From NCBI RefSeq assembly GCF_030270585.1, contig NZ_BSYI01000044.1, positions 1 to 44,253 of the forward strand: 44,253 nucleotides of DNA, given 5' to 3'. This stretch comes from Paralimibaculum aggregatum (lineage in GTDB: Bacteria > Pseudomonadota > Alphaproteobacteria > Rhodobacterales > Rhodobacteraceae). The position numbers and the translations under genes are program-made. The notes beneath the pieces were generated by a model. The model ran no database searches, was not told the origin of the DNA, and saw only the letters and a program-made list of their open reading frames with translations. This document shows, piece after piece, positions 25,347 through 44,253 of this stretch (positions within the stretch are counted from its first letter, which is position 1; each line of letters begins with the position of its first letter).

Positions 25347-25419
25347 CCTGCCCCTGCGCAAGCACGCGCGCAGGCCGGAAATCTCCGCTTACAGAAGCGG
25401 TCATAATAAATCGATTTTT

Positions 25420-25435
25420 GAAATCCCTGATTTTG
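25420..25435. promoter_or_regulatory. Candidate LysR-type site GAAATCCCTGATTTTG upstream of the SDH-like operon
   Basis: This lies in an AT-rich island (about 25400-25440) in an otherwise very GC-rich region, 65-80 bases before the SDH-like iron-sulfur gene. It matches GAAATCGTTGAATTTC at 34888-34903 in the lysR-tctC gap at 12 of 16 positions (GAAATC, TGA and TTT are shared). A common regulator for importer and enzymes would explain this. Confidence 0.4.
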
Positions 25436-25499
25436 ATAGACTGCGGGCCTCGATCCAGATCCGATCAGCAAGCCGAACCGCGCCGAGGTTGCCCGCAAG

Positions 25500-26225
25500 A
25501 TGTCCGAACTTCCCAGCCTGCATGTCCGCGTCTGGCGCGGCACCCCGGAGGCCGGCGACTATGCCGCCTACGAGGTCCCGCGCTACGAGAGCCAGACGGT
25601 TCTCGACGTGGTGTCGTGGATCCAGCAGCATCTCGATGGTGCGCTGGCCTATCGCTACGCCTGCCGGGTGGGAATGTGCGGCTCCTGCGCGATGACCGTG
25701 AACGGCGTGCCGCGCTGGACCTGCCGGACCCATGTCGGCAAGGTCGCCGAGGACGGCAATCTCGAGATCGGGCCGCTGGCGAACTTTCCGGTGATCCGCG
25801 ATCTCGCGGTCGACATGGATCCGTTCTTCGAGAAATGGGTGAAGGCCGGCGGCGTCTTTCATGCCGGCGCCACGCGCGACGATCCGGTGGCCGAGATCGA
25901 CCCCGCCGCCGAGACGCGCCAGATCGCCGATGCCGGGATCGAGTGCATCAACTGCGCGGTCTGCTATGCTGCCTGCGATACGGTGGCGGGCAACCCGGAC
26001 TATCTCGGCCCGGCGGCGCTGAATCGTGCCTGGACGCTGCTGAATGACGCCAAGGACACCGGCCGCGCCGCGATCCTCGAGGCGGTGACCGGCGACGGCG
26101 GCTGCCACAGCTGCCACACCATGGGAAGCTGCGCCGCGCATTGTCCCAACGGCCTCAACCCGCTCGAGAGCATCGCCGGGCTGAAGCGCGCGGCGGCGCG
26201 GTCGTTCTTCGGCAAGGGGAGCTGA
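25500..26225 (+). CDS. SDH/fumarate-reductase-like iron-sulfur subunit (SdhB paralogue)
   Basis: A 241-residue subunit B with all three cluster-binding groups. C55, C60, C63 and C75 match the [2Fe-2S] motif, C149-x2-C152-x2-C155-x3-C159 the [4Fe-4S] motif, and C205, C211 and C215 the [3Fe-4S]/[4Fe-4S] motif in CHTMGSCAAHCPNGLNP. C159 is followed by aspartate instead of the usual proline, and C202 is an extra cysteine (GCHSCH). Electrons would pass from the flavoprotein to quinone through this chain. The gene order here (B, two anchors, A) differs from the usual sdhCDAB, and the operon continues into hydratase and CoA-transferase genes. It is therefore likely a catabolic paralogue rather than the housekeeping TCA enzyme. 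The ribosome site is weak. Confidence 0.88.
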   Translation: MSELPSLHVRVWRGTPEAGDYAAYEVPRYESQTVLDVVSWIQQHLDGALAYRYACRVGMCGSCAMTVNGVPRWTCRTHVGKVAEDGNLEIGPLANFPVIRDLAVDMDPFFEKWVKAGGVFHAGATRDDPVAEIDPAAETRQIADAGIECINCAVCYAACDTVAGNPDYLGPAALNRAWTLLNDAKDTGRAAILEAVTGDGGCHSCHTMGSCAAHCPNGLNPLESIAGLKRAAARSFFGKGS

Positions 26226-26228
26226 GCG

Positions 26229-26597
26229 ATGGGCGAGATGCGACTCTACATGGCACAGCGGCTTTCCGCGCTGGTGATGGCGCCGCTGGTGCTCGGCCAT
26301 GTCGCGGTGATGATCTACGCCGTGCAGGGCGGGCTCTCGGCGGCGGAGATCCTTGGCCGCACCGCCGGCTCGGTCGGCTGGGTGCTGTTCTACGGGCTGT
26401 TCGCGCTGGCGGTGGCGGTGCATGCGGCGATCGGGCTGCGCACGATCCTGCGCGAATGGGCCGGGCTCGGCGGGCTGGTGCTGAACGCCGCCGCGCTGGC
26501 CATCTTCGCGCTGCTGCTGGCGATGGGCTGGCGCGCGGTCTGGGCGGTGACCTTTTCCGCCGGTGCAGCGGCCGCGGCCGCGGGAGGTGGCGCATGA
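26229..26597 (+). CDS. SDH-like membrane anchor subunit 1
   Basis: A 122-residue protein with three hydrophobic helices (about 12-32, 50-72 and 78-100) and a low-complexity Ala/Gly tail. H24 (in VLGHVAVM) and H65 (in AVHAAIGLR) lie in the first two helices, as expected of heme b ligands in succinate:quinone oxidoreductase anchors; the VHAAIGLRTIL sequence resembles SdhD/FrdD-like proteins. It starts 4 bases after the iron-sulfur gene and its stop overlaps the start of the second anchor gene (ATGA). The identification depends on size, topology and context. Confidence 0.78.
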   Translation: MGEMRLYMAQRLSALVMAPLVLGHVAVMIYAVQGGLSAAEILGRTAGSVGWVLFYGLFALAVAVHAAIGLRTILREWAGLGGLVLNAAALAIFALLLAMGWRAVWAVTFSAGAAAAAAGGGA

Positions 26598-26935
26598 TCC
26601 GGCCACATCGCAGGCACCCGCTCTGGTTCGCCTTCATCCTTCACCGCGTCTCCGGGCTGGCGCTCGCGCTCTTCCTGCCGGCGCATTTCCTGATGCTCGG
26701 CAGCGTGCTCGAGGGGGCGGCGGCGCTCGATGCCGGCCTCGCCTGGACCGACAACCTGCTGGCCAAGATCGCCGAGTTCGGGCTCGTCTTCCTGCTGGCG
26801 GTGCATCTCTTCGGCGGGCTCCGGCTGATGGCGCTCGAATTCCTGCCCTGGAGCCCGGCGCAGAAGACCATGGCCGCGGCCTCGGTGGCGCTGGCGGTGC
26901 TGGTCTCCGGCGGCTTCTTCCTGCAGGCGGTGTGA
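26594..26935 (+). CDS. SDH-like membrane anchor subunit 2 (SdhC-like)
   Basis: A 113-residue protein with three helices and the cytochrome b556 signature of SdhC: HRVSG at 17-21 at the quinone site, PAHF with H31, and AVHLFGGLRLM with H71 as a possible heme ligand. The ATG at 26594 overlaps the stop of anchor 1; the frame is open much further upstream but that part is a shadow of other genes. Together the two anchors offer four membrane histidines, so a diheme arrangement is possible but cannot be decided from sequence. The flavoprotein gene starts 12 bases after its stop. Confidence 0.85.
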   Translation: MIRPHRRHPLWFAFILHRVSGLALALFLPAHFLMLGSVLEGAAALDAGLAWTDNLLAKIAEFGLVFLLAVHLFGGLRLMALEFLPWSPAQKTMAAASVALAVLVSGGFFLQAV

Positions 26936-26947
26936 GCGGAGACCCAG

Positions 26948-28735
26948 ATGACCCAGTCCACGACCGAAATCGACCGCCACGACACCGACATCCTGATTCT
27001 CGGCTCGGGCGGTGCCGGGCTCTTCGCGGCGCTGCACGCGCTGCAATCGGCGCCGGAGGGCACCAAGGTGACCCTCGCGGTGAAGGGCCTGATCGGCAAA
27101 TGCGGCTGCACCCGGATGGTGCAGGGCGGCTACAACGTGGCGCTCGGCCCGGGCGACAGCGTCGAGCGGCACTTCATGGACACCATCATCGGCGGCAAGT
27201 GGCTGCCGCACCAGGACATGGCCTGGCGGCTCTGCGAGCAGGCGGTGGTGCGGGTGCGCGAGCTCGAGAACGAGATCGGCTGCTTCTTCGACCGCAACCC
27301 CGACGGCAAGCTGCACCACAAGGCCTTTGCCGGGCAGACCGCCGACCGGACGGTGCACAAGGGCGACCTCACCGGCATCGAGATCATCAACCGGCTGATG
27401 GAGCAGGTGCTCGCGCGCTCCGTGGAGAAGCTGCAGGAGCACCGCGCCATCGCGCTGATCCCCGCCAAGGGCGGCGAGGGGCTGGCCGGCGTGCTGCTGA
27501 TCGACATGCGCACCGGGCGCTTCCGGCTGGTCCGTGCCAAGGCGGTGCTGATGGCCACCGGCGGCGGGCCGACGATGTACCGCTACCACACGCCCTCGGG
27601 TGACAAGACCATGGACGGGCTCGCCATGGCGCTGCGCGCCGGGCTGCCGCTGCGCGACATGGAGATGGTGCAGTTCCACCCCACCGGGCTGCTGGCGGGG
27701 CCGGAATCGAAGATGACCGGCACCGTGCTCGAGGAGGGCCTGCGCGGCGCCGGCGGGCATCTGCTGAACGGCGCCGGGCACCGCTTCATGTTCGACTACG
27801 ACGGCAAGGGCGAGCGCGCCACCCGCGACGTGGTGAGCCGCGGCATCTATGCCGAGATGCAGAAGCAGAACGCCTCGCCCGGCGGCGGGGTCTACATCTC
27901 GATGGCGCATCTCGGCCCCGAGAACGTCGCGAAGAAGTTCAAGGGCATGGTGCGCCGCTGCGCCGATTGCGGCTTCGATCTCGCCGGCGGGCGGGTCGAG
28001 GTGGTGCCGACGGCGCACTACTTCATGGGCGGCGTGGTGGTCGATCCCGACACCCGGACCGCGCTTCCCGGCCTGCACGTGGCCGGCGAGGATGCCGGCG
28101 GCGCTCATGGCTCGAACCGGCTCGGCGGCAACGGGGTGGCCAACTCCACGGTCTTCGGCGGCATCGCCGGCGACGTGATGGGGGCGGATATCGCCGGCGC
28201 CGGCGCTCTGCGCGAGCCCGATCCGGCGGTGCTGGAGGCCGAGATCGGCCGCGCCCTCGCCCCCTTCTCCCGCCCTGCCGCGAAGGCCGGCGCGGTGCAG
28301 GGCCTGCGCCGCGCGCTGCAGGAGGCGATGTGGGAGCATGTCGGCGTGATCCGCACCGGCAGCGGGCTCGCGCGCGGCATCGCCCGGGTGGGCGAGCTCC
28401 GCGCCGAACTGGCCGAGACCGGCCTCGACGGCACCGGCACCGCCGGCGAGCGGGCCTTCAACCTGACCTGGCACGACTGGCTCAACATGGCCTCGCTGGT
28501 CGAGGTCTCGGCCGCGATCGCCGAAGCGGCACAGGCCCGCGAGAACTCCCGCGGCGCCCATCACCGCAGCGATTTTCCCGAGGCGGGCGATCTCGAGGCA
28601 TCGTATTATACGGTGGTGCGCCAGAGCGCGGCGGGGCTCGATGTCGACCGCGAGCCGGTCGCGTTCACCATCGTCCGCCCCGGCGAGACCGTGCTGCCCG
28701 AAGGCGAGCCGGAGACGCTGGTCGCCGCCCAATGA
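26948..28735 (+). CDS. SDH/fumarate-reductase-like flavoprotein subunit with cysteine at the FAD-linking position
   Basis: A 595-residue subunit A. The Rossmann FAD motif is GSGGAGLFAALHAL (19-32). Catalytic features of the succinate/fumarate site are all present: FHPTG, the SRDVV-like TRDVVSR arginine, HYFMGG, GSNRLGGN, and the SRGAHHRSDFPE capping segment. However, in the region where SdhA has SHTVAAQGG with the histidine that covalently binds FAD, this protein has GCTRMVQGG, putting C54 (codon 27107-27109) in that place. FAD is therefore either non-covalently bound or attached in an unusual way, which would lower its redox potential and favour a different substrate or direction. A GGAGA site precedes ATG 26948. 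It is the catalytic subunit of the complex encoded by the three genes upstream. Confidence 0.88.
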   Translation: MTQSTTEIDRHDTDILILGSGGAGLFAALHALQSAPEGTKVTLAVKGLIGKCGCTRMVQGGYNVALGPGDSVERHFMDTIIGGKWLPHQDMAWRLCEQAVVRVRELENEIGCFFDRNPDGKLHHKAFAGQTADRTVHKGDLTGIEIINRLMEQVLARSVEKLQEHRAIALIPAKGGEGLAGVLLIDMRTGRFRLVRAKAVLMATGGGPTMYRYHTPSGDKTMDGLAMALRAGLPLRDMEMVQFHPTGLLAGPESKMTGTVLEEGLRGAGGHLLNGAGHRFMFDYDGKGERATRDVVSRGIYAEMQKQNASPGGGVYISMAHLGPENVAKKFKGMVRRCADCGFDLAGGRVEVVPTAHYFMGGVVVDPDTRTALPGLHVAGEDAGGAHGSNRLGGNGVANSTVFGGIAGDVMGADIAGAGALREPDPAVLEAEIGRALAPFSRPAAKAGAVQGLRRALQEAMWEHVGVIRTGSGLARGIARVGELRAELAETGLDGTGTAGERAFNLTWHDWLNMASLVEVSAAIAEAAQARENSRGAHHRSDFPEAGDLEASYYTVVRQSAAGLDVDREPVAFTIVRPGETVLPEGEPETLVAAQ

Positions 28736-28784
28736 GCCACCCGCCGGCCGCCGAGCCGCGGGCAGTCAAGAGGAGCACGGGACG

Positions 28785-29744
28785 ATGATCCCCATCGATC
28801 TGATCCAGTCGACCGCCGAGAACCTGATGGACAAGGCCGCCATCGAGATCCCCGACGACTATCTCTCGGGGCTCGAGGCCGCGGCCCATGTCGAGGACGG
28901 CGATCTCTCCGCCTTCGTGCTGCAGGCAATGCTGGAGAACTACAAGGCCGCCAAGGAGGACCGCCGGGCGATGTGCGGCGACACCGGCTGCCCGCGCTGG
29001 TACGTCAAGATGTCGAACGAGGCGCAGGTGCAGGGCGGGCCGGTGGCGCTGGAGACGGCGCTGCGCCGGGCCACCGCCGCGGCGACCAACGGCGTGCCGC
29101 TGCGCCCCAACCGGGTGCATCCGCTCTGGCGGACCGACCACGACAATAATGTCGGCATCGCCGCGCCGGAGATCGAATACGGCTTCGAGCCGGCGCCGGG
29201 CGGCGAGTGGATCGACCTGACCACCGTGCACAAGGGCGGGCTCTTCGGCACCGACTACCGCATGCTCTTCCCGTCCGACGGGATCGAGGGGATCAAGCGC
29301 TTCTACCTCGACAGCCTCGTGGCCTTCGGCAAGCGCGGGCTGTCCTGCCAGCCGGCGATCATCGGCATCGGGCTCGGCGGCTCCAAGGATGCCTGCATGG
29401 TGCTCGGCAAGCGCGCCGCCTGCCTGCGCACCGTGGGCGACCGCAACCCGGACCCGAAGATCGCCGCGCTGGAGATGGAGTTCAAGGAGCTCGGCAACTC
29501 GATCGGCATGGGCGCCATGGGCTTCGTCGGCAAGTCGATGGTGATCGACTGCCATATCGAGGTCGGCTACTGCCACACCGGCGGCATGCAGATGTCGGTA
29601 CATGCCTTCTGCCTGAGCTCGCGCCGTGCCTGTGCCCGGATCTGGGCCGATGGCCGGGTCGAGCACCGCACCGATCCGGCGTGGTTCACCCCATACCAGC
29701 GGCGCGAGACGGTCGAGTGGCCGACCGCGCTGGCGGCGGAGTGA
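28785..29744 (+). CDS. Class I fumarase/tartrate-dehydratase-like hydratase, alpha subunit
   Basis: A 319-residue protein of the TtdA/FumA N-terminal family, which holds an oxygen-sensitive [4Fe-4S] cluster. CGDTGCP (about 66-72) corresponds to the conserved CQDTG region with the first cluster cysteine; GIGLGGSKDACMVLGKRA and the DCHIEVGYCHTGGMQMSVHAFC region give further candidates. An AGAGGAG site precedes ATG 28785. The partner beta subunit is encoded at 30998-31669, beyond a CoA-transferase gene, an unusual split. The enzyme should add or remove water at the alpha/beta carbons of an unsaturated dicarboxylate such as fumarate, mesaconate or a related acid, consistent with the SDH-like dehydrogenase upstream. 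Confidence 0.85.
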   Translation: MIPIDLIQSTAENLMDKAAIEIPDDYLSGLEAAAHVEDGDLSAFVLQAMLENYKAAKEDRRAMCGDTGCPRWYVKMSNEAQVQGGPVALETALRRATAAATNGVPLRPNRVHPLWRTDHDNNVGIAAPEIEYGFEPAPGGEWIDLTTVHKGGLFGTDYRMLFPSDGIEGIKRFYLDSLVAFGKRGLSCQPAIIGIGLGGSKDACMVLGKRAACLRTVGDRNPDPKIAALEMEFKELGNSIGMGAMGFVGKSMVIDCHIEVGYCHTGGMQMSVHAFCLSSRRACARIWADGRVEHRTDPAWFTPYQRRETVEWPTALAAE

Positions 29745-29748
29745 GGGC

Positions 29749-30969
29749 TTGAAACCTGCCCGCCATCCGCGGCCGCTCGACGGCATCCGGGTGCTCGACC
29801 TCACGCATGTGCTGGCCGGACCCTATGCCACCGGCCAGCTCGCGCTGATGGGGGCGGAGGTGATCCGCATCGAGCGCATCGGCGGCGACGATTTCGTGCG
29901 CCGCCACGGCGGCACGGCCGAGATGCGCGCGGCCGGGTTCGGCGCCTCCTTCCTCAGCCAGAACACGGGCAAGCGCTCGGTGGCGCTCGATCTCAAGGCG
30001 CCGGAGGGGCGGGAGATCTTCCTCGAGCTGGCGGCCACCGCGGACCTGGTGACCGAGAACTTCCGACCCGGCGTGGTCGAGCGTCTCGGCATCGGCTTCG
30101 AGGCGGTGCGGGCGCGGCGCGGGGATGTGATCTATGCCAGCCTCAGCGGCTTCGGCCCAGGGGGGCCGCTCGCCGGCCGCCCGGCCTATGACCACGTGCT
30201 CCAGGGGCTCTCGGGGCTGATGGCGATGACCGGCACCGCCGAGAGCGGACCGATGCGCGTCGGCATGCCGATCGTCGACTATGTCGCCGGCCAGGCACTG
30301 GTCGCCGCCCTGCTCGGTGCGCTGATCGAGCGCGGACGCCGCCCCGGCCGGGCGCAGCGGCTGCAGGTCTCGATGCTCGACGCGGTGACCACGCTGATGG
30401 GCGCCTATGCCATGCACCACCAGGCCACCGGCCAGCTCCGCGGGCTCGACGGCAACCGGGCGTTTTCGGATTCCCCTTTCTCGGGGCGCTTCGACACCGC
30501 CGAAGGGCAGCTCGTCATCACCGCGAACACCCCGGCCCAGGCGGTGCGCCTCGCCGCCGCCATCGGCCGCCCCGAGCTGGCCGAGGAGCCGGATGCCGCG
30601 CGCGTCGCCGAAGGGCTCGCCGCGGAGCTGGCCACGGCAACCGCCGCCGACTGGGAGACCCGCCTCGCCGCGGCCGGCGTGCCGGCGGCCCGGGTGCTGA
30701 GCCTCGCCGAGATCCTCGCGCACCCGCAGATGACCGATACCCCCTGCTGGCAGCCGCTCGCGGTGCCCGAGCTCGGCATCACGCTGCGCGCCCCGGCGCT
30801 GGCGTTCCGCGCACCCTGGCAACCCGATGGCCTGGACCCCTGCCCCGCCTTCGGCGCCGACACCGCCGCCCTGCTCGGCGAGATCGGCCGCGACGGCGCG
30901 GAGATCGCGCGGCTCGCCGATGCAGGCGTGATCGCGACCGGAACCGCCGATACCGCGGCGACCGGCTGA
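29749..30969 (+). CDS. Class III (CaiB/BaiF-family) CoA-transferase
   Basis: A 406-residue family III CoA-transferase: LDGIRVLDLTHVLAGPYATGQLALMGAEVIRIE at the N-terminus, VTENFRPGVVERLGIGF, YASLSGFGPGGPLAGRPAYD, and the active-site aspartate in MPIVDYVAGQ (about D177), which forms the aspartyl-CoA thioester in formyl-CoA and citramalate CoA-transferases. The start is a TTG at 29749 right after the hydratase alpha stop, with GGAGTGAGGG before it; no in-frame ATG is closer. It probably moves CoA from succinyl-CoA to the hydrated dicarboxylate or the imported acid. No lyase gene for a resulting CoA thioester lies in the window. Confidence 0.87.
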   Translation: MKPARHPRPLDGIRVLDLTHVLAGPYATGQLALMGAEVIRIERIGGDDFVRRHGGTAEMRAAGFGASFLSQNTGKRSVALDLKAPEGREIFLELAATADLVTENFRPGVVERLGIGFEAVRARRGDVIYASLSGFGPGGPLAGRPAYDHVLQGLSGLMAMTGTAESGPMRVGMPIVDYVAGQALVAALLGALIERGRRPGRAQRLQVSMLDAVTTLMGAYAMHHQATGQLRGLDGNRAFSDSPFSGRFDTAEGQLVITANTPAQAVRLAAAIGRPELAEEPDAARVAEGLAAELATATAADWETRLAAAGVPAARVLSLAEILAHPQMTDTPCWQPLAVPELGITLRAPALAFRAPWQPDGLDPCPAFGADTAALLGEIGRDGAEIARLADAGVIATGTADTAATG

Positions 30970-30997
30970 GCCGCGCTTCACCAAGAGGAGACCCGAG

Positions 30998-31669
30998 ATG
31001 GCGCCACCCGCCAAGATCCGCCTCAGCACGACCCCGACGCGCCAGGACCTCGAGGCCCTGCGCCTCGGCGACATCGTCCATCTCGACGGGCTGATGTATA
31101 CCGCCCGCGAAGGCGTCTACAAGCGCGCGCTCGAGGAGCAGGCCAACATCCCGATGGAGCTGCCGCGGGAGAGCGCGGCCAACTTCCATTGCTCCCCCGC
31201 CGCGAGCATCGACGCCGACGGCAGCTTCCGCCTCGGCGCGGTGACGGCGACGGCCTCCTTCCGCTTCGAGAAATGGCTCGGCGAGTGGTTCGAGAAATCC
31301 GGCGCGAGGCTGATCGTCGGCAAGGGCGGGATGTCCTCCGCCACCTACAAGAAGCACTTCGTGCCCAATGGCGCGATCTACCTCACCACGGTGGGCTACG
31401 GCACCGGCGCGCTGCTCGGGCGCGGGGTGGAGAACGTGGAGGCGGTGCACTGGGAGAAGGAGCTCGGCCTCGCGCAGGCGATGTGGGTGCTGAAATGCCG
31501 CGACATGGGGCCCTTCATCGTCGCCTCCGATCTCGAGGGCAACTGCCTCTTCGAACGCGAGAACGCCAAGATCGCCGAGAACCTGCACCGCGCCTATGAG
31601 GGCACCCGCCCGGCGGTGCTCAAGCGCTATGGCGAGACCGACGACCGTTCGGACGAACTGATCGGATGA
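30998..31669 (+). CDS. Class I fumarase/tartrate-dehydratase-like hydratase, beta subunit
   Basis: A 223-residue protein of the TtdB/FumA C-terminal family. The opening LEALRLGDIVHLDGLMYTAREGVYKRALEE matches the family's first strands (LKVGDVVLLSG.IVTARDAAHKR in typical members), VGKGGMSS is the conserved substrate-binding loop, and EKELGLAQAMWVLKCRDMGPFIVASDLEGNCLF matches the closing segment. It follows an AAGAGGAGA ribosome site and ends in a 4-base overlap with the YeiH-family gene. It needs the alpha subunit encoded at 28785-29744 for a complete active site. The CoA-transferase gene lies between the two. Confidence 0.86.
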   Translation: MAPPAKIRLSTTPTRQDLEALRLGDIVHLDGLMYTAREGVYKRALEEQANIPMELPRESAANFHCSPAASIDADGSFRLGAVTATASFRFEKWLGEWFEKSGARLIVGKGGMSSATYKKHFVPNGAIYLTTVGYGTGALLGRGVENVEAVHWEKELGLAQAMWVLKCRDMGPFIVASDLEGNCLFERENAKIAENLHRAYEGTRPAVLKRYGETDDRSDELIG

Positions 31670-32679
31670 CGCTCACCACAGAGGCGTCCCGCGCGGACGC
31701 CGCCAGACGGCTGTTTCCGGGGGTGCTGATCGCCGGGACGGTGGCGCTCGCCGCGAAATTCCTGTCCGAGCACTACGGCGCGCCGGTGATGCTCATGGCG
31801 CTGCTGCTCGGCATGGCCTTCGCCTTCCTGACGGAGGAGCCGACGAGCCGCTGCGCGCCGGGGATCGAGTTCGTATCGAAGGGCATCCTGCGCCTCGGCG
31901 TGGCGCTGCTCGGCCTCGGCATCACGGTGCAGCAGGTGATCGCGCTCGGCGGCTCGGTGGTGGCGATCACGCTGACCGGCGTCGCGGCGACCATCGGGAC
32001 GGGGCTACTGCTCTCGCGTGCGGTCGGGCGGCGGCACCGCTTCGGCGTGCTGACCGGCGGCGCGGTGGCGATCTGCGGCGCCTCGGCGGCGCTGGCGATC
32101 TCCTCGGTGCTGCCCAATCACCCGGAGAAGGAGCGCGACACGGTCTTCACGGTGATCGCGGTCACCACGCTCAGCACGGTGGCGATGATCGCCTATCCGA
32201 TCCTGGCCGGCGCGCTGGGCCTGAGCGACCGCGAGGCCGGCGTCTTCCTCGGCGCCACGATCCACGACGTGGCGCAGGTGGTCGGCGCGGGCTACAGCAT
32301 CTCCGAGGAGGCCGGCGACACCGCAACCATCGTCAAGCTGCTGCGCGTGGCGCTGCTGGTGCCGGTGGTGATCGCGATCTCCATGGCCTTCGCGACCCGC
32401 CAGCCGGGTGCGCCCGCCCGCCTGCCGGTGCCGCTCTTCGTGCTCGGCTTTGCCGCGCTGGTGCTGATCGGCTCCACCGGCGCGGTGCCGGCCTGGGTGT
32501 CGGAGGCGGTGCTCGAGCTCTCGCGCTGGTGCCTGATCGCCGCGATCGCGGCCCTCGGCATGAAGACCTCGCTGAAGAAGCTGGCCGAGGTCGGCCCGGC
32601 GGCGATCGGGGTGCTGGTGGGCCTCACCGTGATCCTCGCGGCGCTCTGCCTCGCGCTGATCGCCGGTTTCGGCATCTGA
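31666..32679 (+). CDS. YeiH/UPF0324-family putative sulfate/sulfite exporter
   Basis: A 337-residue membrane protein of about ten helices from the YeiH/YadS (UPF0324, PSE) family, recognised by ILRLGVALLGLGITVQQV, GGAVAICGASAALAISSVLPN and ATIHDVAQVVGAGYSISEEAGDTATIVKLLRVALLVPVV. Relatives (TauZ/SuyZ in my recollection of taurine and sulfolactate degradation clusters) are proposed to expel sulfate or sulfite set free from organosulfonates; other relatives are simply uncharacterised. Its start overlaps the hydratase beta stop (ATGA), so it belongs to the same operon and is probably needed to remove an anionic product of that pathway. Confidence 0.82.
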   Translation: MTLTTEASRADAARRLFPGVLIAGTVALAAKFLSEHYGAPVMLMALLLGMAFAFLTEEPTSRCAPGIEFVSKGILRLGVALLGLGITVQQVIALGGSVVAITLTGVAATIGTGLLLSRAVGRRHRFGVLTGGAVAICGASAALAISSVLPNHPEKERDTVFTVIAVTTLSTVAMIAYPILAGALGLSDREAGVFLGATIHDVAQVVGAGYSISEEAGDTATIVKLLRVALLVPVVIAISMAFATRQPGAPARLPVPLFVLGFAALVLIGSTGAVPAWVSEAVLELSRWCLIAAIAALGMKTSLKKLAEVGPAAIGVLVGLTVILAALCLALIAGFGI

Positions 32680-32719
32680 GCCGATCGCCAATCCAAGCAG
32701 ACAGGGAGAGAACACGCCC

Positions 32720-33067
32720 ATGTTCGTCGATGAACGGATCTACACCCTCCATGCCGGGCAGGTCCCGGTCTTCCTGAAGCTCTATCAGGAGAAGGGGATG
32801 GCGGTGCAGCTGCGCATCCTCGGCAGGATGGTGGGCTATTACACCACCGATTTCGGCCCGCTGAACCAGATCGTGCACATGTGGGGCTACGACTCGCTCG
32901 ACGACCGCTTCGAGCGGCGCAAGCGCCTGCAGGCTTCGCCGGAATGGCAGGACTATGCCCGCGAGATGCGGCCCCTCGTCACCCATGTGGAGAACAAGCT
33001 GCTGGTGCCGGCGCCCTTCTTCACCCCGGTGGCGCCGATCACCGCGGACGACGTCGCCAAGGGCTGA
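32720..33067 (+). CDS. NIPSNAP-family protein
   Basis: A 115-residue ferredoxin-fold-like protein of the NIPSNAP family: DERIYTLHAGQVPVFLKLY at the start, IVHMWGYDSLDDRFERRKRLQASPEWQDY in the middle, and a short C-terminal tail. NIPSNAP proteins occur often in aromatic and organic-acid degradation clusters of proteobacteria, but their biochemical role is not settled. An AGGGAGA site lies before ATG 32720. It closes the plus-strand operon that starts with the SDH-like genes, followed by a bidirectional palindrome. Confidence 0.85.
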   Translation: MFVDERIYTLHAGQVPVFLKLYQEKGMAVQLRILGRMVGYYTTDFGPLNQIVHMWGYDSLDDRFERRKRLQASPEWQDYAREMRPLVTHVENKLLVPAPFFTPVAPITADDVAKG

Positions 33068-33087
33068 GCCCCCGCCGGGCCGCCATC

Positions 33088-33109
33088 CCCGGCCGCCGCG
33101 GCGGCCGGG
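33088..33109. terminator. Perfect 22-base palindrome between convergent operons
   Basis: The left half is CCCGGCCGCCG and the right half is its exact reverse complement, with no unpaired loop base. It lies in the 49-base gap between the NIPSNAP gene (plus) and the TSUP permease gene (minus), so a bidirectional terminator is the natural reading. No T-tract is present on either side. Confidence 0.6.
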
Positions 33110-33116
33110 ACGCGCC

Positions 33117-33854
33117 TCAGAAGAGGCTGCGCACCAGCAGCGCCCCGCCCGAGACCAGCATCAGCACGATCAGCAGCCGGCGGAAGGTTGCGTCGCCGAG
33201 CCGCCGGAAGGTCAGGATCCCCACCTGCGCCGCCAGCAGCGTCGGCACCAGCGCCCCGCCGCAGAGCAGCAGGGTCTGCCGGTCATAGGCGCCGTCCATC
33301 GCCAGCAGCGACACCGAGAGCCCGAGCACCGCCATGTTGTAGGGCTGGAGCACGCCCCGGCTCGCCTCCTTGGTCCAGCCGCGGAGCGAGATCCACATCG
33401 TCGGCAGCGCGCCCGAAAGCCCCGCCGTGGCCCCGAGGATGCCGCCGACGAAGCCGATCCCGCCGTCGATCACCGGGGTCGGCCGCTCGTAGCGCGGCAG
33501 CGTGCGGCGGAAGGCGAAGAACAGCCCGTAGAGCAGCATGAAGCCGCCGATCACCAGCTTGAGCTGATCCGCGTCGATCAGGTCGAGCACGCTCAGCCCC
33601 AGCGGGATGCCGAAGAGCGCCGGCACCAGGAACATCGCCAGCCGCCGCCAGCGGATCGCGTGGCGCACGATCCAGCAGCCCTGGATGCCGCTCGCCACCG
33701 ACATCAGCAGCACCACCGGCACGGCCTGCTGCGGCGGCATGATCTGCAGCCACCAGCCGAGCGCGAAGAGCGCCGTGCCGAAGCCCGCGAGGCCGTTGAT
33801 GAAACCGCCCATGGCGGCGCCGGCCACGAGGACCGCGATGAAGTCGACTGTCAT
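33117..33854 (-). CDS. TSUP (TauE/SafE) family permease
   Basis: A 245-residue membrane protein with about eight helices and the family's two internal half-repeats, each opening with a glycine-rich helix: AAMGGFINGLAGFGTALFALGW near the N-terminus and DGGIGFVGGILGATAGLSGALPTMW around 129-153. TSUP members export sulfite (TauE), sulfoacetate or other small organic acids, or import them. It is transcribed with, and 53 bases downstream of, the LysR gene at 33908-34807. With the YeiH-family protein at 31666-32679 it makes two unrelated exporter families of sulfur oxyanions in one locus, although TSUP proteins also carry non-sulfur acids. Confidence 0.85.
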   Translation of the reverse strand: MTVDFIAVLVAGAAMGGFINGLAGFGTALFALGWWLQIMPPQQAVPVVLLMSVASGIQGCWIVRHAIRWRRLAMFLVPALFGIPLGLSVLDLIDADQLKLVIGGFMLLYGLFFAFRRTLPRYERPTPVIDGGIGFVGGILGATAGLSGALPTMWISLRGWTKEASRGVLQPYNMAVLGLSVSLLAMDGAYDRQTLLLCGGALVPTLLAAQVGILTFRRLGDATFRRLLIVLMLVSGGALLVRSLF

Positions 33855-33907
33855 TGGAAGGACGTCCTGCTGGATTCGGGTGGTCGGATGCCGGCCGGCA
33901 GAGGCGG

Positions 33908-34807
33908 CTAGCGGATGCGGGCGGGGTCGAAGACGCCGATGGCGATCGCCTCGGCCAGCTTCTCGTGCAACGCCTCTATGACGCGGGTCTTGACGGTGTC
34001 GGCATGGCTCAGCAGCCCGAGCACGCGCGGCCCCAGCCCCTCGGCCAGGGCCAGGCGGCGCAGCGGCAGCCGGTCCGGGCGCGGCACGATCTGGCTGGGC
34101 ACGATGGAGACCCCGAGCCCGGCATAGACCATGCTCGAGATCGCCTCGAGGCTGTCGAGCTCCATGGTGTCGGAAACCTCGATCTGCCGCTCCCGCAGCC
34201 AGGTCTCGATCATCGCGCCGACCACGGCCTGGCGGGAGAAGCGGATGTAGGGATGCGCCTGCAGGATCGCGAGCGGGTCGTCGCCCTCCACCTCGGCGCC
34301 GGCGATCAGCTCGAAGCGTTCCTCGCCGAGCTCCTGCCAGCGATAGTGCCGCGCCAGCATCGGCGGGCGGGAGGTGATGACCGCATCCAGCGCCTGCCGG
34401 TCGATCTGCGAGACGAGGTCGATGGTCAGCCCCGGCACCACGCGCACGCCGAGATTGGGATGCTCGCGCTTCAGCATGGCCACCGCGAGCGGCACCAGCC
34501 CGTTGACGAGGGTCGGCACCGAGCCGATCGTCAGCGTGCCGCGGAAGCCCTCGTCGCCCAGCACCGAGGCGACCATGCCGTCATAGGCGGCGACGATCTC
34601 CCGCGCCCGTGCCACCAGCGCCCGGCCGATCGGCGTCAGCTCCGGCGTGCGTCGCGAGCGGTCGAACAGCGTGACCTGCCACTCCTCCTCGAGCGCCTTC
34701 ATCTGCTGGCTCACCGCGGCATGGGTGACGAAGACCGCCTCCGCCGCGGCGGTGAAGGTCCGGTGGTCGTCGATCGCGATCAGGGTCTTGAGGTTCCGGA
34801 TCGACAT
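33908..34807 (-). CDS. LysR-family regulator divergent from the TctCBA importer
   Basis: A 299-residue LysR protein: helix-turn-helix at about 3-60 (NLKTLIAIDDHRTFTAAAEAV, then HAAVSQQMKALEEEW) and an effector domain from about residue 87 (FRGTLTIGSVPTLVNGLVP). I chose ATG 34807, which gives the typical MSIRNLKTL start with an AAGGAAAA site upstream; ATG 34834 would add nine residues. It lies divergent from tctC with a 157-base AT-rich gap and is followed on its own strand by the TSUP gene. A similar motif also occurs upstream of the SDH-like operon, so it may activate both units in response to the imported acid. Confidence 0.9.
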   Translation of the reverse strand: MSIRNLKTLIAIDDHRTFTAAAEAVFVTHAAVSQQMKALEEEWQVTLFDRSRRTPELTPIGRALVARAREIVAAYDGMVASVLGDEGFRGTLTIGSVPTLVNGLVPLAVAMLKREHPNLGVRVVPGLTIDLVSQIDRQALDAVITSRPPMLARHYRWQELGEERFELIAGAEVEGDDPLAILQAHPYIRFSRQAVVGAMIETWLRERQIEVSDTMELDSLEAISSMVYAGLGVSIVPSQIVPRPDRLPLRRLALAEGLGPRVLGLLSHADTVKTRVIEALHEKLAEAIAIGVFDPARIR

Positions 34808-34836
34808 TTCGTCAGTTTTCCTTACGGTTCTCATCA

Positions 34837-34850
34837 GAATTTTTCAATTC
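34837..34850. promoter_or_regulatory. Inverted repeat GAATT-TTTC-AATTC near the LysR start
   Basis: Perfect 5-base arms with a 4-base spacer, 30 bases upstream of the LysR start codon. A LysR protein often binds next to its own gene, so this may be an autoregulatory half of the binding region. The arms are short and AT-rich, so chance is possible. Confidence 0.3.
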
Positions 34851-34887
34851 ATAAAATACCTTTAACCAATATAAGCTGTCAATGCGG

Positions 34888-34903
34888 GAAATCGTTGAAT
34901 TTC
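34888..34903. promoter_or_regulatory. Candidate LysR operator GAAATCGTTGAATTTC upstream of tctC
   Basis: GAAAT and ATTTC form perfect arms with a 6-base spacer, 62-77 bases before the tctC start, where LysR activators usually sit. Twelve of 16 bases match the site at 25420-25435 upstream of the SDH-like operon. Confidence 0.45.
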
Positions 34904-34964
34904 AGGTAATTCTGGATTTGACGATGTAAAAACCAAGTGAAAACCGTCCGAGGGAGGGAAAAAC

Positions 34965-35951
34965 ATGAAAAACTTCCGGATCGCATCCGTAGCGGCACTG
35001 TCAATCGCGCTAACCGCAGGGGCCAGCCTGGCGGCGGACTACCCCGACCGCACGATCAACATGATCATCCCCTATGGCCCTGGCGGCGCGACCGACATCT
35101 CCGCGCGCACGCTGGCCGAGCCGCTGGGAAAGGTGGTCCCCGAGGCGCTCGTCATGGTCAACCGCACCGGCGCCGGCGGCGCCACCGGCTCGGTCTCGGT
35201 GAAGCACGCCTCGGCCGACGGCTACACCATGCTCTTCGCCCGCGTCGGCTCGCACACCGTGAACCCGGCGATGAAGGACACGCTGCCCTACACGCTGGAC
35301 GATTTCCGCTTCGTCGGCGTCTACGAGATCAACCCGGTGGCCTGCGCTGTGCGCAGCGACAGCGACATCGACTCGCTGGATGAACTGGCGAGCAAGGTGC
35401 AAGCGGAACCGGGATCGGTGACATATTCCTCCTCGGGTGTCGGCGCGCTGCAGCACATCGCGAGCGCAATGGTGCTCAAGAGCTTCGGCGTGGAGAAGCC
35501 GCTGGAGCAGGCGGTGCATCTGCCCATGAAGGGCGGCGGTGCAGCGGCAACTGCCGTGCTCAGTGGCACCGCGACTTTCATCTGCACCAACTCCGCGGAA
35601 CTCGCGAGCTTCGTTGCCAATGGCCAGTTCAAGCCGCTGATGGTCACCACCACCGAACCGGTCGCGGGCTTCGACGCCCCCTCGGCCGCCTCGCTCGGGC
35701 ATCCCGAGCTCGAGCAGCTGGTCGGCTGGACCGGCGTGGCCGGCCCCAAGGACCTGCCCGATGACATCGCCGCGAAATGGGGCGAGTGGCTCGCCGCCGC
35801 GACCGCCGATGCCGGCTTCCGCGAGAAGATGGAGGCCCGCGGCTCGGTGATCGAGCTGATGTCGCCCGAGGACTCGGCGGCCTTCATCCAGAAGCAGTAC
35901 GAGGTGTTCCGCGCCCTTGTGGACGAGCTGGGGATGCGGATCTCCGGCTGA
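34965..35951 (+). CDS. tctC: Tripartite tricarboxylate transporter substrate-binding protein, TctC-like
   Basis: A 328-residue periplasmic binding protein of the TctC/Bug family. A Sec signal covers about residues 1-24 (MKNFRIA start, cleavage at SLA-A), and the mature protein begins DYPDRTINMIIPYGPGGATDISAR, the characteristic first carboxylate-binding loop. NRTGAGGATGSVSVKHASADGYTM and YSSSGVGALQHIASA supply the other conserved ligand loops. Known ligands of the family include citrate, tartrate, aromatic and other (di)carboxylates and some sulfonated acids. A GAGGGAGGG ribosome site precedes ATG 34965. It is followed by a hairpin and then by the genes of the small and large membrane subunits, TctB and TctA. 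Confidence 0.93.
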   Translation: MKNFRIASVAALSIALTAGASLAADYPDRTINMIIPYGPGGATDISARTLAEPLGKVVPEALVMVNRTGAGGATGSVSVKHASADGYTMLFARVGSHTVNPAMKDTLPYTLDDFRFVGVYEINPVACAVRSDSDIDSLDELASKVQAEPGSVTYSSSGVGALQHIASAMVLKSFGVEKPLEQAVHLPMKGGGAAATAVLSGTATFICTNSAELASFVANGQFKPLMVTTTEPVAGFDAPSAASLGHPELEQLVGWTGVAGPKDLPDDIAAKWGEWLAAATADAGFREKMEARGSVIELMSPEDSAAFIQKQYEVFRALVDELGMRISG

Positions 35952-35999
35952 TCCGGGGCTCGCGCGCCCGACGTTCGCAGCAACGCCCTGTCCAGCACC

Positions 36000-36031
36000 G
36001 CGGGCCGCGGCTCCCCCGAGCTGCGGCCCGC
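36000..36031 (+). terminator. Attenuator-like hairpin between tctC and tctB
   Basis: GCGGGCCGC (36000-36008) and GCGGCCCGC (36023-36031) are perfect 9-base arms with a 14-base loop, placed after the binding-protein gene and ending 17 bases before the tctB start. Partial termination or message stabilisation here would make the binding protein more abundant than the membrane subunits, a common arrangement. Confidence 0.55.
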
Positions 36032-36047
36032 CCGCCAGGAGGACATC

Positions 36048-36536
36048 ATGACGCGTACGACCCACAGGCAGATCGGGATCGCGGCGATCCTCTTCGCCGC
36101 CTTCCTGACCCTTGCCGGCATTCCCTATGGCGTGACCGCCCCCGACAACATCCGCAACATCGTGCTCTCGCCGCTGTTCTGGCCCTATGCCCTGGCCGGG
36201 CTGCTGGCGCTGGGCGGCGCCGGGCTGCTGCTCGCCTCGCGCGGCCTGCCGAGCGCGGCCGAAGCCGAGGCGCCCGGCACCGGCTGGCGCCCCGGCGCGG
36301 GCCTGCGCCTGGCCATCGCGGCCGTTATCATGGTGCTGCTCGTGGCCTTCGCCGAGACGGTGGGGCTGGTCTGGGCCGCGATGCCGGCCTTCCTCGCCTT
36401 CGCCTTCCTCGTGCGCACGCGCCACCCGGTCGCCGCGACCATCGCCGCCATCGCCGCTCCGCTTGCGCTCTACGCGTTCTTCGCCCATGTGGCCGGCGTC
36501 GCGATCCCGCAGGGCATCTTCGTGAGGCTGCCATGA
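36048..36536 (+). CDS. tctB: Tripartite tricarboxylate transporter small membrane subunit, TctB-like
   Basis: A 162-residue protein with four predicted helices (about 10-25, 41-65, 85-106 and 113-152 in total hydrophobic extent), the normal topology of TctB. TctB subunits are poorly conserved in sequence, and the identification rests on size, topology and position between tctC and tctA. An AGGAGG site lies just before ATG 36048, and the stop overlaps the tctA start by 4 bases. Confidence 0.88.
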   Translation: MTRTTHRQIGIAAILFAAFLTLAGIPYGVTAPDNIRNIVLSPLFWPYALAGLLALGGAGLLLASRGLPSAAEAEAPGTGWRPGAGLRLAIAAVIMVLLVAFAETVGLVWAAMPAFLAFAFLVRTRHPVAATIAAIAAPLALYAFFAHVAGVAIPQGIFVRLP

Positions 36537-38044
36537 CGCTGTTCGACAATCTCGTCACCGGCGCCGCGATCTTCACCGATCCGCAGGCGCTGCTCGCGCT
36601 CGTCATCGGCATCGCGGTCGGCACCGTGGCCGGCGCGATCCCCGGGCTCTCGGCGACCATGGCGGTGGCGCTCACCCTGCCCTTCACCTTCGCGCTGGAG
36701 CCGATGACCGGCATCCTGCTGCTGCTCGGTGTCTACAAGGGCGGCATCTTCGGCGGCTCGATCCCGGCGATCCTGATCAAGACACCCGGCACCCCGGCCT
36801 CCTCCGCCACGGTGCTCGACGGCTACCCGATGGCCGAGAAGGGCGAGGCCGGCCGCGCGCTCACCATGGCGCTCTATGCCTCCTGCACGGCAGACCTCTT
36901 CTCCAACCTCGCGCTGATCCTGGCCGCCGGCTGGCTGGCGAGCTTCGCGCTCTCCTTCGGCCCGCCGGAGTTCTTCACGCTGATCCTGTTCTCGCTGACG
37001 ATCATCGCCGGCGTCTCCGGCGACAGCCTCCTGAAGGGGCTGGTCTCGGCGGTGCTGGGGCTGCTGCTCGCCACCGTCGGGCTCGACCTCGTCTACGGCA
37101 CCAACCGGTTCAACTTCGGCGATCCGAACCTGATGGGCGGGCTCAATTTCATCGCCGTGCTGATCGGGCTCTTCGCGATCCCGGAGATCCTCGCGATGGT
37201 GGCCGACCCGCATGGCAACGACGGCAACGTGCGCGGGCTCGGCGACAACCGCGTGTCCTTCGCCGAGTATCGCCGCTGCTTCAAGTCGATCATCCGCGGC
37301 AGCGCGATCGGCGCCTTCCTCGGCTCGATCCCCGGCATCGGCGCGGCGCCCTCGGCCTTCCTCAGCTATTCCGAGGCGCGGCGGACCTCGCCCAACAAGG
37401 CGAATTTCGGCAAGGGCGAGATCGAGGGCGTGGCGGCGGCCGAGGCCGGCAACAATGGCGTCGCCGGTGCGACGCTGATCCCGCTGCTGGCACTCGGCGT
37501 GCCGGGCGACGTGGTCACCGCGATCATCATCGGCGCCTTCATGATCCACGGGCTGCAGCCCGGGCCGCTGATGTTCGTCACCAATGCCGACATCGTCTAC
37601 GGGCTTTTCGTCGGGCTGATCCTCAGTTCCTTCGCGCTGTTCTTCATCGGCGGCGCGGCGATCCGGGTGTTCCGCTACGTGGCCGACATCCCCCGCGGCG
37701 TGCTGTTCCCGCTGGTGCTGGTGCTCTGCGTCTATGGCTGCTACGCGGTCAACAACAGCATGTTCGATGTCGGCGTGATGTTCGCCATCGGCTGGCTCGG
37801 CTTCCTGATGATGCGCTACGGCGTGCCGGCGGCGCCCTTCCTGATCGCCTTCATCCTCGGCCCGCTGCTCGAGGACAATTTCCGCCAGTCGATGCTGATG
37901 TCGGGCGGCTCGCCGGAGATCCTGTTCCGCAGCCCGATCACCTGGGTCTTCTGGGGCCTGACGGCGATCACCGCCACGGCGATCGCAATGGCCGGGCTGA
38001 AGGCCATGAGCCGCGCCCCGGCGCCGGCGGAGAGCCGCGACTGA
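36533..38044 (+). CDS. tctA: Tripartite tricarboxylate transporter large membrane subunit, TctA-like
   Basis: A 503-residue protein with about twelve helices, the transport subunit of the TTT family. Family signatures are GTVAGAIPGLSATMAVALTLPFTF (about 25-48), YKGGIFGGSIPAILIKTPGTPASSATVLDG, and the mirrored GSIPGIGAAPSAFLSYSEARR plus GVAAAEAGNNGVAGATLIPLLALGVPGD in the second half, which show the inverted repeat of the fold. It would drive uptake of the acid caught by TctC, coupled to the ion gradient. A GC-rich hairpin lies directly after the stop. Confidence 0.95.
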   Translation: MTLFDNLVTGAAIFTDPQALLALVIGIAVGTVAGAIPGLSATMAVALTLPFTFALEPMTGILLLLGVYKGGIFGGSIPAILIKTPGTPASSATVLDGYPMAEKGEAGRALTMALYASCTADLFSNLALILAAGWLASFALSFGPPEFFTLILFSLTIIAGVSGDSLLKGLVSAVLGLLLATVGLDLVYGTNRFNFGDPNLMGGLNFIAVLIGLFAIPEILAMVADPHGNDGNVRGLGDNRVSFAEYRRCFKSIIRGSAIGAFLGSIPGIGAAPSAFLSYSEARRTSPNKANFGKGEIEGVAAAEAGNNGVAGATLIPLLALGVPGDVVTAIIIGAFMIHGLQPGPLMFVTNADIVYGLFVGLILSSFALFFIGGAAIRVFRYVADIPRGVLFPLVLVLCVYGCYAVNNSMFDVGVMFAIGWLGFLMMRYGVPAAPFLIAFILGPLLEDNFRQSMLMSGGSPEILFRSPITWVFWGLTAITATAIAMAGLKAMSRAPAPAESRD

Positions 38045-38074: not shown

Positions 38075-38469
38075 ATCTCGACCGGGCTCGCCCAGCCTGC
38101 CGCCCCTGCCCGCCGGCCCTCTGCGCCGGCTCCGCGTCGGCGCCCCGCGCGGGGCGATCCGTCTCCGCCCCGGCCGCAGGCGCCCGAAGGCAGGCGCAGG
38201 CCAGGACCGGACGCCCGACGAGACCGGCGAGCGACATTCACATCCCCGGCTCCCCAAAAATCCTGATTGTGAATGGACAGACGCCCTACCAGCGCACAAG
38301 GTGTTCGCCGGGAAACAGGGTGGGGTGCACTCGTGCATGGCGTGAACCGCCAGGCGGGCATCCGGCATCTTCAGGACCTGACGCCGGCGCCACCCCCACT
38401 CGGAAACACGCGCATACTCCATCGGGCCCATGCTCGCCCGGGGGCGGGGATGTGACTGCAGGAGGCACC
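38075..38469. other. Intergenic region before the autotransporter gene
   Basis: About 395 bases without a convincing gene. The first 130 are extremely GC-rich and full of short palindromes. An ATTCACA / TGTGAAT pair (38236-38242 and 38268-38274) and the AAAAATCCTGATT patch between them form the only less GC-rich island and probably mark the promoter region of the autotransporter gene. The last bases hold its AGGAGG ribosome site. Confidence 0.45.

Positions 38470-44253
<5,784 letters not shown>

Follow-up and report, generated by a model that had tools for sequence, protein, structure and literature searches.

3-Sulfopropanoate (3-SP) is a product of the fermentation of sulfoquinovose and dihydroxypropanesulfonate (DHPS) in Enterococcus gilvus and of homotaurine metabolism, as stated in passages of PMC11489063 and PMC12890257. 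According to the former, degradation of 3-SP is unreported apart from one thesis, by J. Mayer, from which it cites a route of homotaurine degradation in Roseovarius nubinhibens ISM that runs through 3-SP, sulfoacrylate and sulfolactate; a passage of the latter calls it unclear how 3-SP is degraded in Bilophila. We found no gene assignment for 3-SP dehydrogenation or sulfoacrylate hydration in the literature searched, most subscription papers and the Mayer thesis being outside its reach. Here we describe a locus of Paralimibaculum aggregatum that may provide these two activities. It lies in positions 1 to 44,253 of contig NZ_BSYI01000044.1 (C44; this stretch of 44,253 nucleotides is hereafter called the window), part of a genome of 5.5 Mb, and encodes a relative of succinate dehydrogenase (SDH), a split hydratase (HydA and HydB), an importer (TctCBA), two putative exporters (TSUP and YeiH) and a LysR regulator. 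We propose, with a probability of about 0.68, that it is a 3-SP catabolic unit, in which a 3-sulfopropanoate:quinone dehydrogenase and a sulfoacrylate hydratase yield 3-sulfolactate; we infer its exact substrate, product and direction, as well as the roles of the transporters, from sequence comparisons.

3-SP is an isostere of succinate, one carboxylate being swapped for a sulfonate. TctCBA, a tripartite tricarboxylate transporter (TTT), would import this C3 sulfonate; the SdhBCDA-like complex would take two hydrogens from it to form 3-sulfoacrylate, quinone receiving the electrons by way of the Fe-S clusters and membrane anchors of the complex; and HydAB would add water to 3-sulfoacrylate to give 3-sulfolactate. 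Dehydrogenation and hydration of 3-SP would lead to sulfolactate, each enzyme of this route being accounted for. In the host, a ComC-like dehydrogenase and a lyase of the SuyAB type (forming pyruvate and sulfite) would then act on sulfolactate, Xsc being also present. TSUP and YeiH would export sulfite, and the LysR protein would act as regulator, a C3 sulfonate being its probable signal. The oxidative direction is suggested by the exporters, sulfite dehydrogenases and sulfolactate-consuming genes.

Conservation of the locus and its neighbours

Using an alignment of eight members as the query, we found in the named genome collection 580 stretches encoding a relative of the flavoprotein SdhA at E ≤ 1e-3, a number that may include ordinary SDH, and we used the best 80 of these, with identities of 73-82%. 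Together with 31 loci from an order sample, 31 from a class sample, nine from a plasmid collection and the window itself, this made 152 loci, or 143 distinct ones after removal of nine duplicates. Many loci end at contig edges; 104 of the 143 are well flanked, with at least 6.5 kb on both sides. Neighbours were labelled by their best blastp match to 46 reference proteins, with identity floors for TSUP (≥40%), LysR (≥45%), YeiH (≥45%) and the CoA-transferase (≥50%). Without these floors the counts take in paralogues (CoA-transferase in 11/80 and 18/143 loci, any sulfur marker in 78/104), and the stricter counts are used throughout.

The whole core (SdhB, both anchors, SdhA, HydA and HydB) was present in 98 of the 104 well-flanked loci. 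A first reading of the window, made from the sequence only, had allowed that these genes might never be found together elsewhere; they are co-located in many genomes. In the 80 named loci, SdhA was found 80 times, the second anchor and HydA 79 times each, the first anchor 76 times, and SdhB and HydB 75 times each. The same loci contained TSUP (50), LysR (49), TctC (28), a thiamine diphosphate (ThDP) enzyme (19) or a nitroreductase (15), and more rarely NIPSNAP (11), a SorA-like protein (10), the CoA-transferase (9) or YeiH (7). Of the 143 distinct loci, 75 have a TSUP relative nearby and 76 a LysR relative, while 15 contain NIPSNAP and 11 the CoA-transferase.

These counts bear on the pathway put forward in the sequence-only reading, in which methylsuccinate is converted via mesaconate and citramalate to citramalyl-CoA with the help of the CoA-transferase. 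The enzyme families could do this, and the best models for the CoA-transferase include succinate-glutarate CoA-transferase (196.5 bits, cut-off 750) and succinyl-CoA:mesaconate CoA-transferase (195 bits, cut-off 700). Yet, with only 9/80 named and 11/143 distinct loci containing a CoA-transferase, CoA activation is not a core step; furthermore, sulfite and sulfolactate genes are frequent around the locus, and the window-type hydratase is devoid of the canonical class I motifs. No citramalyl-CoA lyase was annotated in the eight plasmid regions with gene tables, no profile search for it having been made. Given the optional CoA-transferase and the recurrent sulfur genes, we set methylsuccinate aside as an extremely improbable substrate. 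The more general scheme of that reading (import of an acid, dehydrogenation with transfer of the electrons to quinone, hydration of the double bond) fits our data, but not its substrate class, the substituted succinates, as the recurrent neighbours are sulfite and sulfonate genes. One possibility is that the CoA-transferase serves CoA exchange with 3-sulfopropanoyl-CoA.

Named relatives of the window flavoprotein include Paracoccus, Sulfitobacter and Roseovarius, and the core extends to Betaproteobacteria (Cupriavidus) and Gammaproteobacteria (Pseudomonas). The best named relative (L048, 82% identity) stands in a record titled Oceanobacillus sp. HTM 045, a Firmicute name among mostly proteobacterial loci; the record is possibly mislabelled. 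In the plasmid collection, 18 records encode the flavoprotein, and all 12 records with a hydratase of at least 65% identity fall among them; the copies that we opened are labelled as FAD-binding protein, succinate dehydrogenase and fumarate hydratase. Haloarchaeal plasmids carry a 47% identical flavoprotein together with its Fe-S subunit. Two such loci (L045 and L046) have an SdhA/SdhB pair with no annotated anchors, an ArgH-like lyase, a SuyAB-like pair and TSUP, L045 having also an Ldh-family dehydrogenase; judging from their sequences, these would be the archaeal counterpart of the unit, with another candidate for the hydratase.

The importer varies too. Eight of the 80 named loci (L053, L058, L073, L076, L078, L087, L093 and L100) have the binding protein of an ABC transporter and no full TctCBA in the stretch, while DctA is found in Methylobacterium nodulans and a TRAP system in Pseudorhizobium; the importer thus looks exchangeable. 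Optional neighbours include GarR- and SSADH-type genes, MMSDH and an MR/MLE enzyme. This last one, of the mandelate racemase/muconate lactonising type, is encoded in L040 (15398-16537) and has relatives in a total of 11/143 loci, beside TSUP in several of them; it is perhaps a racemase. A 3-sulfinopropanoyl-CoA desulfinase is annotated in L040. This variety would be understandable if another C3-C4 sulfonate or sulfinate of the same skeleton were the true substrate, 3-SP being incidental. We regard this as very improbable because 3-SP alone, among the substrates considered, gives a two-step and fully accounted route to sulfolactate with a physiological precedent, reported in a passage of PMC11489063. 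Direct desulfonation to malonate semialdehyde was also considered; it is weakly supported, MMSDH being found in 2/143 loci (L043 and L044).

Sulfur genes and co-occurrence with sulfolactate metabolism

A sulfite exporter or a sulfite dehydrogenase would be expected in an organosulfonate catabolic unit, and the window encodes TSUP and YeiH, both of putative sulfite exporter families as judged by sequence. Among the 104 well-flanked loci, 76 have at least one sulfur marker: TSUP in 64, a SorA-like protein in 14, YeiH in nine, a SuyB-like protein in seven and SoxC in two. M. nodulans has both SoxC (607 bits, cut-off 420) and SorA (696 bits, cut-off 600) beside the locus. SuyAB-like genes are found together with the dehydrogenase and a hydratase in L093, L100, L216, L220 and M. 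oryzae (L047). They are directly upstream of SdhB in L100 and separated from it by one YeiH gene in L093; in L216 and L220, SuyAB, a dehydrogenase pair, SdhBCDA, the hydratase, a binding protein and TSUP all stand together. As split pairs of the UxaA family, with an SAF domain in addition to GD_AH domains, the SuyAB-like genes are taken here to be SuyAB. They are accompanied by a sulfolactate dehydrogenase-like pair in L093, L216, L220 and L047, though not in L100; the best model for these companion proteins is L-sulfolactate dehydrogenase (164 and 167 bits, cut-off 500). This company supports the SuyAB identity, as does the SuyAB/SlcC/ComC cluster described for Paracoccus in a section of PMC12421959.

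The sequence-only reading had noted that a last enzyme is missing from the window. This is still the case, but candidates are present elsewhere in the host genome: a SuyB-like protein on contig C3 (75% identical to the L047 copy), Xsc on contig C26 (901 bits, cut-off 676) and a ComC-type gene; as mentioned above, SuyAB adjoins the core in relatives such as L093, L100, L216 and L220.

The exporters and SoxC first made us think of sulfosuccinate, which the sequence-only reading had also listed for growth tests. It would be dehydrogenated to sulfofumarate and then hydrated, either to 3-sulfomalate, from which sulfopyruvate would arise through sulfo-oxaloacetate, or at the carbon bearing the sulfonate, with direct formation of sulfite and oxaloacetate. 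Importers of the dicarboxylate type (TctCBA, or DctA in L042), enzymes of the SDH and fumarase types, sulfite export and oxidation, and downstream sulfopyruvate genes would all be consistent with it. However, sulfosuccinate needs an extra dehydrogenation/decarboxylation step, for which we saw no recurrent gene, it leaves unexplained the SuyAB-like and sulfolactate dehydrogenase-like genes that complete L216 and L220, and our literature search found nothing on such a pathway. We consider it unlikely and prefer 3-SP, which is the simpler reading in view of the link with sulfolactate.

We compared genomes with and without the locus in two samples. The order sample comprised 196 genomes including the host, 32 with the locus and 164 without. 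The class sample comprised 385 genomes, 32 with the locus including the host; 31 of these were compared with 49 of the 353 locus-negative genomes, taken at roughly even steps. ComE was counted over its cut-off only, since matches at E ≤ 1e-20 (89/196 and 40/80 genomes) are mostly weaker relatives in the class sample. In the order, Xsc was found in 31/32 locus-positive vs 113/164 locus-negative genomes, ComE in 23/32 vs 58/164, and ComE or SuyB in 26/32 vs 68/164 (p 3.5e-5). The unrelated gene narG, used as a control, showed no association (9/32 vs 39/164, p 0.65); isocitrate lyase, intended as another control, was found in 0/196 genomes and was uninformative. In the class outside the order, SuyB was found in 19/31 vs 2/49 genomes, or 19/28 vs 1/15 in genomes of at least 3 Mb (p 1.2e-4), ComE over its cut-off in 3 vs 2, and Xsc in 13 vs 4, the 13 including one partial match below the cut-off (G281). 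The two samples thus point to sulfolactate or sulfopyruvate as downstream intermediates, via different known routes. A ThDP-enzyme gene adjoins the locus in five of the six locus-positive genomes of the order that have neither ComE nor SuyB, as compared with 3 of the 26 others (p 0.0015, post hoc), suggesting that this enzyme can stand in for the sulfopyruvate decarboxylase of two subunits.

Altered active sites and the weight of the evidence

Residues of the flavoprotein were compared by alignment with E. coli SdhA (1nek), in which we take His45 to form the covalent FAD link and His242, Thr254, Glu255, Arg286, His354 and Arg399 to be substrate-site residues. The window protein has Cys54 at the position of His45 and Glu262 at that of Thr254, and both replacements are found in 143/143 distinct loci. 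At these two positions, His and Thr are found in the true SDH of the host. This ordinary SDH is encoded on contig C18 (TIGR01816, 935 bits, cut-off 727), and L-aspartate oxidase on contig C40, indicating that the window complex is an extra one and not, as the sequence-only reading had also envisaged, the only SDH of the organism.

The replacement of the FAD-linking His raises the question of direction. The complex could work in reverse as an electron sink, sulfolactate being dehydrated to sulfoacrylate and this reduced by quinol to 3-SP. A non-covalent flavin generally favours reduction, and the best-scoring model for the window protein is TfrA, a fumarate reductase (456 bits, below its cut-off of 718). 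On the other hand, genes for sulfolactate consumption and sulfite release accompany the locus in genomes, the unit comprises an importer and likely sulfite exporters, and R. nubinhibens is reported, in the PMC11489063 passage, to use 3-SP as an intermediate in the degradation of homotaurine as a carbon source. Operation in reverse is for these reasons very unlikely.

The hydratase is altered as well. The motifs CQDTG, GSEN and TTSARM, to which we ascribe a substrate role, are all kept in solved fumarases, as judged by alignment, and in a second type of hydratase (type b, nine loci); the window type (type a) differs at all three. HydA is the sole PF05681 match in the host genome. Across the 143 loci, the partner of the dehydrogenase is the window type in 127, the canonical class I type in nine, the ArgH-like protein of haloarchaea in two, and none was seen in five. 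One dehydrogenase clade is thus associated with differing hydratases, which makes the dehydrogenase the fixed element and the hydratase, apparently, an exchangeable one; on the haloarchaeal plasmids, its job would presumably be done by the ArgH-like lyase.

Two previously studied bacteria may be connected with the locus. That of R. nubinhibens ISM (L081) reads TSUP-LysR-TctCBA-SdhBCDA-HydA-CoA-transferase-HydB; a TTT system for sulfolactate is known in this organism (passage of PMC5812351). In Paracoccus, the available text of PMC12421959 describes a 'cluster 3' of 11 locus tags, MDP0926751-0926761 of P. wurundjeri, the 7th being a TauE homologue; nine of its proteins are increased on sulfofucose. 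P. onubensis (L053) has SdhBCDA-HydA-HydB-TSUP-LysR, with TSUP as the 7th gene, followed by ABC transporter genes. Induction by sulfofucose would fit a regulator sensing sulfolactate. When plasmids were searched at near identity with the locus of P. onubensis, no record from P. wurundjeri was among those listed. For P. pantotrophus NKNCYSA, the same text mentions degradation of homotaurine. A plasmid of this species, possibly from another strain, has the hydratase and a flavoprotein match; in this record (NZ_CP038206.1) the match spans only residues 198-595 (67% covered) and no gene is listed there, so that the copy may be incomplete or broken.

The authors of PMC12421959 read cluster 3 as fumarate and tartrate metabolism, perhaps linked to the Krebs cycle, in the text available. 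Family membership and this proteomic annotation would indeed agree with accessory C4-dicarboxylate enzymes that are merely co-induced with sulfonate degradation. But the host possesses a normal SDH, the active-site residues of the paralogue are altered in 143/143 loci, the window-type hydratase lacks CQDTG, GSEN and TTSARM, and such a function would not explain the clusters shared with SuyAB-like genes across lineages. We find it highly improbable.

Several points weigh against a role in 3-SP degradation. No sulfur marker was present in the fetched stretch of 28/104 well-flanked loci, and SorA-like proteins such as that of Marivita score far under the SorA cut-off (166 vs 600 bits). SuyB alone showed no association in the order (3/32 vs 12/164, p 0.72), and our Fisher tests, of which several were made, treat genomes as independent and ignore relatedness. 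In the class, the locus-negative set includes many small genomes, and 9/31 locus-positive genomes have neither SuyB nor ComE over its cut-off. One genome (G044) has no ComE, SuyB or neighbouring ThDP gene, and another (G176) no Xsc. Hydratase alpha is absent from 5/143 loci, two of which are short contig ends (L082, L227) and three are not (L208, L213, L219); nine open reading frames (ORFs) of these three, put to Pfam, comprised no hydratase or sulfonate enzyme. Loss of the FAD-linking His favours reduction in known enzymes, and Glu262, being acidic, does not suggest itself as a residue for binding a sulfonate. The CoA-transferase and NIPSNAP, which we consider as accessories, have no assigned place in the route. 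As to the literature, the R. nubinhibens route rests on one thesis-citing sentence in the passage of PMC11489063. Cluster 3 is presumably of the same locus type as L053, the match being made by gene count and TauE position, not by sequence, and the TauE tag is printed in two ways (0926757 and 0926575) in the part of PMC12421959 concerned.

On balance, we still lean towards a broader interpretation, in which a clade of complex II has been repurposed as a 3-SP:quinone oxidoreductase feeding an organosulfonate into the respiratory chain. In this clade the histidyl-FAD bond would have been lost, a cysteinyl bond perhaps taking its place, and on three or more independent occasions the enzyme would have acquired an unrelated or distantly related hydratase as its partner (altered class I, canonical class I and haloarchaeal ArgH-like) to form sulfolactate. 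It would lie hidden in marine roseobacters and soil bacteria under the names of succinate dehydrogenase and fumarase. If the assignment of the locus to 3-SP is correct, it would provide candidates for the genes behind a poorly known step in the cycling of organic sulfur, testable in cultured R. nubinhibens ISM, and a complex II enzyme acting on a sulfonate. It would also correct the misannotation as succinate dehydrogenase and fumarate hydratase and explain an induced Paracoccus proteomic cluster already in print.

Gene content of the window and comparison with described systems

Profile matches confirmed all the components recognized in the sequence-only reading, namely a complex II paralogue with the gene order B-anchor-anchor-A, both subunits of a split class I hydratase, a CoA-transferase of class III, YeiH and NIPSNAP, facing TSUP/LysR and TctCBA (Table 1). 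The genes form a plus-strand run from SdhB to NIPSNAP (25500-33067), a minus-strand TSUP/LysR unit (33117-34834) and a plus-strand TctCBA unit (34965-38044).

Table 1. Features of the window locus with their proposed functions and profile scores
Feature	Position	Strand	Profile matches and remarks
SdhB-like iron-sulfur subunit, 241 aa	25500..26225	+	TIGR00384 180 bits (cut-off 88); PF13085; cysteine motifs for three Fe-S clusters
Membrane anchor 1 (Sdh_cyt), 122 aa	26229..26597	+	PF01127 30.8 bits (cut-off 25.8)
Membrane anchor 2 (cytochrome b556-like), 113 aa	26594..26935	+	PF01127 41.8 bits (cut-off 25.8); TIGR02970 51.7 (cut-off 52.3)
SdhA-like flavoprotein, 595 aa, proposed 3-sulfopropanoate dehydrogenase	26948..28735	+	PF00890 232 bits; PF02910
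Hydratase alpha (HydA; TtdA/class I fumarase family, type a), proposed sulfoacrylate hydratase	28785..29744	+	PF05681 211 bits; ATG start at 28785
Class III CoA-transferase, accessory	29749..30969	+	PF02515 319 bits; TTG start at 29749
Hydratase beta (HydB; TtdB family, type a)	30998..31669	+	PF05683 77 bits
YeiH-family exporter, putative sulfate/sulfite export	31666..32679	+	PF03601 222 bits; TIGR00698 129.5 (cut-off 232.6)
NIPSNAP protein	32720..33067	+	PF07978 97 bits
TSUP/TauE-family exporter, proposed sulfite exporter	33117..33854	-	PF01925 112 bits
LysR regulator	33908..34834	-	PF03466/PF00126
TctC binding protein of TTT importer	34965..35951	+	PF03401
TctB	36048..36536	+	PF07331
TctA	36533..38044	+	PF01970 489 bits; ATG start at 36533

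A carboxymuconolactone decarboxylase-family protein is encoded immediately 5' of the operon (24747-25313, plus strand), and a 'peroxidase-related enzyme' is likewise annotated upstream of the M. nodulans copy (L042). Just 5' of SdhB, an AT-rich patch (25400-25440) within GC-rich intergenic DNA is a plausible promoter or LysR site. Downstream, a plus-strand frame of 1995 aa (38269-44253) that ends at the contig edge has a signal-peptide-like stretch and many glycine-rich 'AQSIGGGGG' repeats; it is probably a surface or autotransporter-type protein, and the equally long minus-strand frame at 38371-44061, with no Pfam match, is probably its antisense shadow. Ten ORFs upstream in the window, put to Pfam, gave only one match, suggesting that several were chosen in the wrong frame or strand.

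The complex resembles complex II in having a flavoprotein, an Fe-S subunit and two membrane anchors, with the corresponding domains (PF00890/PF02910, PF13085 and PF01127), and in keeping the equivalents of E. coli SdhA Phe119, His242, Glu255, Arg286, His354 and Arg399. It differs from it in that the flavoprotein scores below the cut-offs of all 25 models listed (TIGR01812, 389 vs 567; TIGR01816, 316 vs 727). Similarly, the hydratase shares with class I fumarase and TtdAB the split into alpha and beta subunits (PF05681/PF05683) and the GKGGM motif, and its alpha subunit passes the broad model TIGR00722 (201 vs 100.65), whereas the beta subunit is below TIGR00723 (109 vs 145). The window type has CGDTG for CQDTG, LFGTDYR for the GSEN segment and TASFRF for TTSARM, and misses the equivalog cut-offs for fumarase and tartrate dehydratase with both alpha (190 vs 276 and 134 vs 365) and beta (109 vs 269 and 121.5 vs 264).

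With sulfolactate degradation (SlcC/ComC, SuyAB, ComDE, Xsc and the TTT system SlcHFG), the locus would share the downstream intermediate, the host having SuyAB-, ComC- and Xsc-type genes and a TTT-type importer; it contains no recognised desulfonating enzyme and would feed this pathway from 3-SP. Finally, as regards the metabolism of homotaurine and 3-SP, Cupriavidus necator H16 and Burkholderia excrete 3-SP and R. nubinhibens degrades it, according to the passages cited. The route from 3-SP via sulfoacrylate to sulfolactate is the same in PMC11489063 as here; genes for its two steps, none of which is named in the part of that paper concerned, are those that we propose for the dehydrogenase complex and HydAB.

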